Below, piece by piece: positions 17,813 through 20,790 of a DNA stretch of 35,153 nucleotides. Below the pieces are notes generated by a model, which was not told where the DNA came from, searched no databases, and saw only the letters and a list, made by a program, of their open reading frames with translations. Each line of letters opens with the position of its first letter. Within the stretch, counting starts at the first letter, position 1. This DNA comes from Microcaldota archaeon (GTDB lineage: Archaea; Micrarchaeota; Micrarchaeia; Micrarchaeales; CABMGC01), in the NCBI GenBank assembly GCA_023270015.1, contig JAGDXZ010000051.1, positions 1 through 35,153 on the forward strand. The letters run 5' to 3'. Both the position numbers and the translations under genes were made by a program.

Positions 17813-19396
17813 CTAAGGTCGAAGATCAAGGCGATTTGTTGCATCTAGGTCCAATTCATATATCTTCTTTCCGTTTACTTCGAGAAGGTCTAGCGAATTG
17901 ACGTATTTCTTGACTACAAGGTATAGCCTGTCTATGATTTCCTGCGGTCGCGCCTTAGGATTAGAGTCAACAAAAGAAAGTCTTTCAAACACCTTTTTCT
18001 TTGGGTATTTCCTTAGCAGTATGTTGACAAAATCCTCTTGCAAAAATCTTGCAAGGCGGTGGAATAAAGGCCTTGAAATTTCAGGCTTTGATGAGGCGTT
18101 ATCAGTTATATAAGCAATGGTCCTTTTTACTCCATCTTCGAATCCTTCTACGTCTCCCTTAAGAATCGCACTCTTCAGGTTTCGTATTAGTGTACGCCCC
18201 TCGGGGTCTAATTTCTTTGTCCACTCAGGCATCTTACCCAAAGCAATCTCTGACTTGTCAAGAATCTCTGTAACTCTTGGCTTCGGAATAATGATTCTGC
18301 TGTTGTTGGCGTCTAGGATTACTTCATCAAAGTCTCCCGCATATCTTGAAAGTGCTTTTAAATTAACGCCTACTATGCAAGGTATCCTTTTTTCGCGTGC
18401 CAGTATTGCAACATGCGAGTTTATGGAGTTTTCCTGCGCTATTATCCCCTTTGCCTTTGATATCACACCATCATATTCTGGAGAAAGGAGCAAAGTAGCA
18501 AGTATGTTCCCTCTCTTGAATGCCTTTTCAGCTTCCTCTGCAGGCACATCGTCAAAGATGTATTGCACTTTACCTTTTGCGTAGCCTAATGATGCTGTTG
18601 TTCCACGAAGCGTCACTGTATTCTTCGACTGCACCATTATGCTTTTGAAGCTTCCGCCTTTCAATGTCGTTATCGGGCGCGATTGAAAAATCCAATATAG
18701 CTTCCCATCGTACGCCCACTCTATGTCTTGCGGGCTTGCAAAAAACTCTTCTATTTCCTTTGCGATCCTATAAAGTCCGCTAAACATTTTTGATTTATCG
18801 GTCAGTATTGTCCTATTTGCATGTTCCTCACGCCCCGAAACCAAATTCCACGGTACGCCTTTTACATATTCTAAGACCATCTCGTCGTTTCCGTTTACCG
18901 GATTTCTGGTAAATAAAACTCCAGAGTATTTCGAATTTATTTGCTTTTGGACTAATGCCGCCATTTCCACCTTTTCAATACTTATTTTATGAAGCTTGCA
19001 GTAGTTAGTAACCCGATTAGAATTTGCATCAGAGTAAACCTTTTCTATTCTTTTGATTACGTCTTCTATTGAATTTGCGTTAGGGTAGGAGGTAAATATG
19101 CCTGCAAAACTGGCCTTTTTAGTGTCCTCTACAGTAGCCGAGCTGCGGACTATCAGGGGGTACTGCATAGAGTAGCTAAACCAATCGAGATATTTTCGCA
19201 GCTCACCAAAAAGCCCTTTTGGCAATTTTCCTTTTTCTTTCCAATACCTATAGACTCTTGTGGTAACGACAAATCCATCTGGAACATTGTAATTGGCATG
19301 TTTGAGTTTCATGAGATTGTAAGCTTTACTGCCGACCTCATTTTGCCCTGCGTAACTGCTTAATGGTATTATGTACTCATTCTTAGGTCCTGCCAT
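17813..19396 (-). CDS. PEP synthase-like phosphotransferase lacking the PEP/pyruvate barrel
   Basis: The 527-aa protein has two of the three domains of PEP synthase/pyruvate phosphate dikinase. Residues 1-245 form the ATP-grasp domain: 'EVGSKAYNLMKL', 'VPDGFVVTT', 'LIVRSSATVEDTKKASFAG', 'SGVLFTRNPVNG', 'QDIEWAYDGKLYWIFQSRPI'. About 260-370 is the swivelling phosphohistidine domain with the expected catalytic His328 in 'INSHVAILAREKRIPCIVG'. The remaining roughly 155 residues are helical and do not resemble the PEP/pyruvate TIM barrel. The enzyme may therefore move phosphate from ATP through His328 to another acceptor, as rifampin phosphotransferase does, though in a different domain order. 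Its ATG overlaps the end of the radical SAM gene by 14 bases, so the two are translationally coupled. The acceptor is unknown; the neighbouring peptide is one candidate. Confidence 0.82.
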   Translation of the reverse strand: MAGPKNEYIIPLSSYAGQNEVGSKAYNLMKLKHANYNVPDGFVVTTRVYRYWKEKGKLPKGLFGELRKYLDWFSYSMQYPLIVRSSATVEDTKKASFAGIFTSYPNANSIEDVIKRIEKVYSDANSNRVTNYCKLHKISIEKVEMAALVQKQINSKYSGVLFTRNPVNGNDEMVLEYVKGVPWNLVSGREEHANRTILTDKSKMFSGLYRIAKEIEEFFASPQDIEWAYDGKLYWIFQSRPITTLKGGSFKSIMVQSKNTVTLRGTTASLGYAKGKVQYIFDDVPAEEAEKAFKRGNILATLLLSPEYDGVISKAKGIIAQENSINSHVAILAREKRIPCIVGVNLKALSRYAGDFDEVILDANNSRIIIPKPRVTEILDKSEIALGKMPEWTKKLDPEGRTLIRNLKSAILKGDVEGFEDGVKRTIAYITDNASSKPEISRPLFHRLARFLQEDFVNILLRKYPKKKVFERLSFVDSNPKARPQEIIDRLYLVVKKYVNSLDLLEVNGKKIYELDLDATNRLDLRP

Positions 19397-20525
19397 TTAA
19401 TCCTGTTTTTATTTTATAGTTGCACGCTTCTTTAGCAGCGTACAATCCGTTAAATATGCACCCTTCACAGTAGCTCTGTAGAGGGCATGTATCGCAGATT
19501 TCTTTCGAAGGCGCTGGAATATAGTAATATTTGATTACTTCCTGATCTTCGAATAGACTTAGCCCCCTTTCAAACACATTGCCATATGTATGGGTGATAG
19601 GAAACAAGGCACATGGGCGTGCATTGCCTTCTGGATCTATTGCAGTATGGCGGAGCACTAGACCGCAATTGAAGCTTGAGTCCCACTCGGCGTCTCCTAC
19701 TTGGGCTGGTGCTTCGGCTTTGGTTTTCAAATATCGGGCAACATCAGTTACACCTATCCCCCGGCCTATTGGCTTCGCTATGTTATATTCAATATCCGAT
19801 GCCCCGTAATTTTTTAATGCTGCTAACAACATATTCCAAACCTTTTGGTCAAATATATAATCTGTGGCCAATATACGAACTGGTAGGTACCTACTTAATA
19901 CAGAGATGGTTTTGTTGAGATAGTGCTTGCCATCCAAGAACGCAATATATTCGTGTGCCCATCTGTTGAAACTTATACTTAAGTTTAGCTTTTTTCTATC
20001 TTCTGGATTTATTTTTGATATCGCATCCTCCAAAACGTCTGTATTTGTACCGTTGGAAATGACTTCTACCTGTTCAAAGTTTTCGCAAACATATTTCAAT
20101 ATTCTGGAAAAATCTGGGTGAAGTGTGGCTTCACCACCTGTTATCCCTATTTCGGTCATGCCTGCCTTCTTCAAGTTTTCTAGTAAGGTTCTCAATTTTA
20201 ACCATGAAATATACTTGGAATGCCGTATATCTGAATTTGAACTTCTATAGCAGTACTCACAATGTAAATTACAGGCTTCGGTGAGCTCGACTTGGATGTG
20301 GATTGGATGTATAAAATGTTCGTCACCTGTGATTTTTATAGGGTATACCTGCATGACTTTTTGTAACAAAAATTTGAATTTTGGGTAATAGTCTAAGAGC
20401 CCTTCCTCTAAGACCCTTACTGCATCATTGTTTATATAAAGCCGTTTTACTTCTCTAAATCCTTTCCCATCATTAAAATACTCTAATAGTATTCCACCGC
20501 CGACGAATTTGTGAAGTATAGGCAT
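19383..20525 (-). CDS. Radical SAM/SPASM enzyme, probable peptide maturase
   Basis: From the ATG at 20525 the protein is 380 aa; a TTG at 20543 would add six residues. The first 65 residues form a small strand-helix region that could be a PqqD-like peptide-recognition domain (inference). The radical SAM core begins with 'TEACNLHCEYCYRS' (Cys85, 89, 92 bind the SAM [4Fe-4S] cluster), followed by 'GITGGEATLHPDF'. The C-terminus carries the SPASM signature: C-x12-G-x4-C, then C-x2-C-x5-C-x2-C (residues 344-356) and a further Cys368, ligands for two auxiliary clusters. SPASM enzymes commonly modify ribosomal peptides (PqqE, AlbA, MftC) or proteins (anSME). It lies 69 bases after a small Cys-containing peptide gene and overlaps the PEP-synthase-like gene. 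No clear ribosome-binding site was seen. Confidence 0.88.
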   Translation of the reverse strand: MPILHKFVGGGILLEYFNDGKGFREVKRLYINNDAVRVLEEGLLDYYPKFKFLLQKVMQVYPIKITGDEHFIHPIHIQVELTEACNLHCEYCYRSSNSDIRHSKYISWLKLRTLLENLKKAGMTEIGITGGEATLHPDFSRILKYVCENFEQVEVISNGTNTDVLEDAISKINPEDRKKLNLSISFNRWAHEYIAFLDGKHYLNKTISVLSRYLPVRILATDYIFDQKVWNMLLAALKNYGASDIEYNIAKPIGRGIGVTDVARYLKTKAEAPAQVGDAEWDSSFNCGLVLRHTAIDPEGNARPCALFPITHTYGNVFERGLSLFEDQEVIKYYYIPAPSKEICDTCPLQSYCEGCIFNGLYAAKEACNYKIKTGLNGRT

Positions 20526-20594
20526 ATTAAAACTTTTAATCAAATAGCAGAGTAGTGTTACAAAAACAACGTTGGAACTATATTTTGCCTGGCT

Positions 20595-20765
20595 TCAACT
20601 ATATTCGCCCTTGCAAGGTTTAGTTCCACAGTATTGTCTCGACCACATGACTTTCGGTCTAAGATCTGCTATTATCTTTGGTTCTAAGTTTTTGGTAGAA
20701 GCCTGTTTCATGTCTTCTTGTTTTTCATTTGATCCAACTTTCCCCGCTTTATCCATTATATCCAT
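20595..20765 (-). CDS. Candidate RiPP precursor peptide
   Basis: This short gene encodes 56 aa from the ATG at 20765 (in-frame GTGs at 20777 and 20774 would add a few residues). GGTGG ends five bases before the ATG and is a good ribosome-binding site. The first 35 or so residues are charged and helical (Lys, Glu, Gln, Met), like a leader. The C-terminal part, 'LRPKVMWSRQYCGTKPCKGE', holds two cysteines (46 and 51), a Trp and a Tyr, like a core. It is immediately upstream of the SPASM enzyme on the same strand, behind TTTAAA-type boxes. The opposite strand is also open over this region, but its hydrophobic product has no promoter or partner. Function is inferred from layout, and no known precursor family was recognised. 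Confidence 0.55.
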   Translation of the reverse strand: MDIMDKAGKVGSNEKQEDMKQASTKNLEPKIIADLRPKVMWSRQYCGTKPCKGEYS

Positions 20766-20790
20766 TATTGCCACCACTTCGCCTGTCTTT

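Follow-up and report, generated by a model that had tools for sequence, protein, structure and literature searches.

A candidate archaeal RiPP-like cassette encoding a small Cys-containing peptide, a radical SAM/SPASM enzyme and a barrel-less PEP-synthase-like dikinase

A three-gene operon of a reduced archaeon probably represents a RiPP-like cassette, in which a small Cys-containing peptide is encoded directly upstream of a radical SAM/SPASM enzyme and of a PEP-synthase-like dikinase without a PEP/pyruvate barrel. Dikinases of this kind recur beside small Cys peptides, radical SAM enzymes or both in the phylum. The window (the whole stretch of 35,153 nucleotides that was analyzed) is a 35 kb contig of a 0.79-Mb archaeal assembly of 54 contigs. 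Its genes include an archaeal ThrRS, tfb and ribosomal proteins, and this gene content and the reduced relatives indicate that the host is a DPANN-type archaeon, presumably Micrarchaeota-like. The first-pass annotation had described three tightly packed genes on one strand, with a 14-base overlap between the dikinase-like and the radical SAM gene. All three were found on the minus strand at the positions it gave, and the overlap was as described. The genes and domains are as follows.

20595..20765, minus strand: candidate precursor peptide (ORF; codon score in the true-gene range)
19383..20543, minus strand: radical SAM/SPASM enzyme (Pfam and NCBIfam scans, motifs, one close relative)
17813..19396, minus strand: barrel-less PEP-synthase-like dikinase, 527 aa (Pfam matches, tree position, 14-base overlap)
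18656..19384, minus strand: ATP-grasp (PPDK_N) domain, residues 5-247 (motifs; confident AlphaFold model; fold matches)
18302..18615, minus strand: phosphohistidine swivel domain, residues 262-365 (His328 in NSHVAILARE)
17816..18265, minus strand: C-terminal helical domain, residues 378-527, in place of the PEP barrel (predicted helices)

Pfam matches of the dikinase are PPDK_N (4e-45) and the PEP-utilizers mobile domain (1e-14); no PEP/pyruvate barrel model of the scan matches it, which bears out the earlier statement that this domain is absent. The ATP-grasp motifs are complete (VRSSATVED, SFAG, GVLFT, PQDIEW and QSRP) and His328, a catalytic-type residue, is invariant in nine barrel-less dikinases. 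The predicted fold matches PPDK, RPH and the ATP-grasp of HpeI, with lone-domain matches spanning the ATP-grasp and His domains. The RPH family score is 128 of 999 bits, and the His domain is central, not C-terminal. It is followed by about 150 residues that are predicted to be helical (AlphaFold pLDDT mostly 65-81 at residues 400-460 and lower elsewhere). This C-terminal domain has no detectable sequence relative and is regarded as a putative acceptor-binding module. Profile comparison revealed no kinship to the tails of other dikinases or to helical partner proteins; of the three dikinase tail families, two are related to each other.

When 301 genomes of the phylum were searched with the dikinase, two kinds of match emerged: canonical PEP synthases, and a distinct set of dikinases that are barrel-less or split. 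The ATP-grasp domains of the latter mostly stand apart from those of the PEP synthases in a tree, in a 29-row group (support 89/80). Within this tree the window protein falls together with the split dikinases of G264, G198 and G008 (98/82), a tentative placement because of its long branch (1.88). A broken piece of the window dikinase (residues 7-117, 63% identity) was observed in G042 (L075:7584-7958), beside another dikinase and without a radical SAM gene. Other dikinase architectures were also encountered. Two loci (L144:1-8340 and L145:1527-8415) encode a lone ATP-grasp protein and two or three HpeH-like proteins of ~470-520 aa with a C-terminal His domain, and are possibly archaeal two-component small-molecule dikinases; L144 also carries HTH_10 regulators. 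G006 (L076:260-4279) encodes a permuted PEP-synthase-like fusion of 1339 aa, in which two His swivel domains are combined with an ATP-grasp at the C-terminus.

The radical SAM enzyme comprises 386 aa when started from TTG, or 380 aa from the ATG at 20525. It matches PF04055 (5e-14) and carries CxxxCxxC at 91-98 (Cys 91, 95 and 98) and GGE at 136-138. The SPASM signature reported earlier was confirmed at the level of residues: seven cysteines (293, 311, 350, 353, 359, 362 and 374) are present and all are kept in a 50% identical relative in G289, although the Pfam SPASM match itself is weak (17 bits, below the cut-off of 21.5). The closest named family in the NCBIfam scan is AlbA, the subtilosin maturase (NF012164; 111 bits against a cut-off of 850). 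The G289 protein is the only close relative in the 301 genomes; it is cut upstream by the end of its contig, and no dikinase lies downstream. Wider scans of genomes and viruses yielded only remote radical SAM proteins. The N-terminal region is predicted to be beta-beta-alpha-alpha at low confidence (pLDDT ~40), and no significant match to an RRE leader-binding domain was found in this enzyme. An identity as viperin was rejected, the weak pVip match in PADLOC spanning only the shared core.

The candidate precursor (MDIMDKAGKVGSNEKQEDMKQASTKNLEPKIIADLRPKVMWSRQYCGTKPCKGEYS) is 56 aa long from its ATG, or 60 aa if the GTG at 20777 is the start, and a G-rich GGTGG lies 5 nt ahead of the ATG. The N-terminal part is Lys/Glu-rich and leader-like, while the C-terminal part, with Cys46 and Cys51, is core-like. 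The codon log-odds score is 4.6 over the 56 codons. For comparison, the 5-95% range of true genes is 3.3-22, and the 95th percentile of wrong frames is no higher than 0.9; the first half of the peptide is coding-like and the core half is weak. Shuffling the gap gave an ORF of this length in 8% of cases, and length alone is therefore no evidence. The putative maturase gene thus has a neighbour of the precursor kind, a short, coding-like frame of 56 aa located 51-69 nt upstream of the radical SAM gene. The peptide has no homologue in the 301 genomes and, in pairwise shuffles, no significant homology to the other candidate peptides described below. The earlier proposal of a RiPP-like cassette therefore draws its support mainly from related loci in the phylum, and the window peptide taken alone is still a candidate precursor.

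The peptide and the radical SAM gene share a reading frame and are separated by one TGA and a linker of 17-23 codons. This arrangement would also suit a single longer gene broken by an in-frame TGA, through mutation or assembly error, in which case no free peptide would be made. The linker scores as non-coding, which makes two genes likelier than one interrupted gene, and the score becomes positive again at the ATG at 20525. In a joined protein, moreover, the radical SAM core would lie ~42 residues further in than in AlbA, judged from alignment positions. A broken gene is thus considered very improbable.

The first-pass annotation had also asked whether homologous dikinases ever adjoin a small peptide gene. 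Barrel-less or split dikinases do lie beside small Cys peptides in G252, G051, G198 and G224. In G252 and G051, which represent two genera, a 49-aa Cys/Ser-rich peptide, ending in G252 in CSHSCSGCCSGTCSSSNCCV, directly precedes a barrel-less dikinase (L157:7512-9665 and L078:226-2377), at a distance of 13 bp from the dikinase start or overlapping it. No other enzyme gene lies between or directly beside the two, and no radical SAM gene adjoins them. The two peptides are 96% identical, and seven of the nine codon differences between them are silent. This pair is a cleaner test case than the window. The same dikinase was found in G250 at the start of a contig, without the peptide.

In G198 (L132:8727-11384) a peptide, a lone His domain, a helical protein and a lone ATP-grasp follow each other in one run that lacks a radical SAM gene and amounts to a three-part dikinase. 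The G198 peptide is homologous (E 3e-7) to a 48-aa peptide of G012 ending in GYSGPCSWCV, which stands at the head of a cluster encoding an arginase-family enzyme, possibly a peptide arginase, along with three radical SAM enzymes (L077:6062-11289). This RiPP-like cluster of G012 also holds a 118-aa RRE-like protein. A further match of the G198 peptide, in G259 (E 0.04), was discarded as an implausible precursor gene lying across genes on the other strand. By codon score the candidate peptides of G224, G012 and G008 are gene-like and those of G198 and G252 are not; support for the latter two comes from homology and silent changes instead.

Radical SAM enzymes accompany such dikinases at other loci. 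G224 contains a tightly packed series of a 41-aa peptide, a radical SAM/SPASM enzyme, a His domain, a second radical SAM/SPASM enzyme and an ATP-grasp, an arrangement kept in part in G011 and G245; 164 genomes of the order contain no relative of the G224 peptide. In the cluster of G008 (L072:4809-11548), both parts of a dikinase accompany a SagD-type YcaO, a C39-peptidase-like protein, a radical SAM enzyme and a 29-aa candidate peptide. An intact radical SAM/SPASM gene directly precedes a 700-aa dikinase in G037. Decayed radical SAM genes lie directly upstream of intact barrel-less dikinases in G048 and G007 (L082:5100-8141 and L079:699-2840), a hint that the radical SAM step may be dropped.

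In an unbiased set, the 60 nearest genomes, the pairing of radical SAM genes with these dikinases exceeds chance only modestly. An intact radical SAM gene lies within 3 kb at 3 of 17 barrel-less dikinase loci, where 0.66 are expected (P 0.03). Adding the two decayed genes brings this to 5 loci, set against a background counted without decayed genes. No count underlies the association with peptides, which is based on the two conserved peptide families. Several barrel-less dikinases in the phylum have neither a peptide nor a radical SAM neighbour, and the many that lack a peptide neighbour may have small-molecule substrates.

Both enzymes of the window might modify a small molecule, a lipid or a nucleotide, the 56-aa frame then having arisen by chance or encoding some unrelated small protein. 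The absence of peptide homologues, the frequency of such frames in the shuffles and the weak matches between the radical SAM protein and pVip (viperin) would agree with this. Against it speak the codon score of the peptide, which falls outside the wrong-frame range, the full set of SPASM cysteines, common among peptide-modifying enzymes, and the peptide neighbours of related dikinases. This explanation is considered unlikely.

Several studies offer a basis for the chemistry of a peptide-modifying cassette. In RPH and its two-component relative HpeHI a swivelling His domain carries the beta-phosphate of ATP to a hydroxyl that another domain holds (PMC4844700, PMC12167813), and AlbA forms thioethers via abstraction of an alpha-carbon hydrogen (PMC8326336). 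The anatomy of the barrel-less dikinases, split forms included, fits the RPH/HpeHI reaction with another acceptor, and by this analogy a phosphoryl-transfer step in the cassette is plausible. Since the runs of G252, G051 and G198 offer only the peptide as a partner, it is the likeliest phosphate acceptor; that the window peptide is a substrate of its dikinase is given about an even chance. The operon may accordingly be read as a small archaeal RiPP-type system in which the peptide receives a crosslink at Cys from the radical SAM enzyme and a phosphate from the dikinase, a reading for which the balance is equally even. The 56-aa peptide would be translated and bound by the AlbA-like radical SAM/SPASM enzyme, which would introduce a crosslink; its most likely form is a thioether that joins Cys46 and/or Cys51 to a neighbouring residue. 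The dikinase would then move the beta-phosphate of ATP via His328 onto a hydroxyl, or possibly a carboxyl, of the peptide, held by the helical C-terminal domain as RPH holds its drug in the rifampin-binding domain. We infer that the peptide is a substrate of both enzymes, as well as the order of the steps, the type of bond and the residue phosphorylated.

It might be argued that the radical SAM enzyme matures the peptide alone, yielding a sactipeptide or ranthipeptide, and that the dikinase serves in RPH-like self-protection or as a small-molecule kinase, placed in the operon by chance or for immunity. The nearest characterized barrel-less dikinases, RPH and HpeHI, do act on small molecules (PMC4844700, PMC12167813), and the radical SAM gene is AlbA-like. 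However, peptide and dikinase occur together in G252, G051 and G198 in runs without a radical SAM gene, so that the dikinase tracks with the peptide rather than with the radical SAM enzyme. A sole role for the radical SAM enzyme is therefore held to be improbable, and phosphorylation of the peptide is preferred. More tentatively, and with the balance somewhat against it, a DPANN-type RiPP class may be proposed that is defined by swivel dikinases, in one piece or as two or three genes, phosphorylating small Cys peptides as the main or only step, sometimes with radical SAM or YcaO enzymes. On this view the Ser/Cys-rich core of the G252 and G051 peptides might even undergo dehydration by way of such phosphoesters.

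The cassette had also been proposed to be inserted between housekeeping genes, and this was supported in part. In G005 and G020 rpS15 directly adjoins tfb, and in G002 a single other gene separates them, while in the window valS and the cassette sit between the two. The cassette is AT-richer than its surroundings (GC 0.36-0.42 versus 0.43-0.52 in flanking genes), and the codon use of the radical SAM gene departs from that of typical genes (0.02 per codon versus ~0.23). Position, AT-richness and codon use would fit a cassette that was acquired from elsewhere.

RiPPs of tiny symbiotic-type archaea have been little explored, and the open literature searched contained no PEP-synthase-type dikinase linked to RiPP biosynthesis. 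If correct, the proposed pathway would add a new type of phosphotransfer enzyme to peptide maturation and provide a handle for genome mining, namely the presence of a barrel-less or split dikinase next to a gene for a small Cys peptide. It would also suggest that these reduced archaea make peptides with which to deal with hosts or competitors.

Parts of the cassette resemble several known systems. The first two domains of the dikinase are homologous to those of PEP synthase (PpsA) and PPDK, with complete motifs, but the PEP/pyruvate barrel is absent and the barrel-less clade stands apart from the canonical PpsA of the phylum. TOMM/YcaO clusters are approached by the relative G008, which joins a SagD-type YcaO to a split dikinase of the same kind and a radical SAM enzyme, whereas the window cassette has no YcaO. 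With AlbA and other sactipeptide maturases the window enzyme shares the radical SAM core, the seven-Cys SPASM domain and a small Cys-containing peptide gene directly upstream; it differs in its low family score (111 of 850 bits), its archaeal origin, its pairing with a dikinase and its lack of adjacent transporter and protease genes. RPH, HpeHI, CreHI and PpsAB, like the window dikinase, combine an ATP-grasp with a swivelling phospho-His domain and have no PEP barrel, and the split forms of related loci (a lone ATP-grasp with a lone or fused His domain) resemble two-component dikinases. The domain order of RPH is ATP-substrate-His, while that of the window enzyme is ATP-His-helical. Unlike the RPH/HpeHI group, the window dikinase ends in a C-terminal domain unrelated by sequence, and its genomic partners are a peptide and a radical SAM enzyme.
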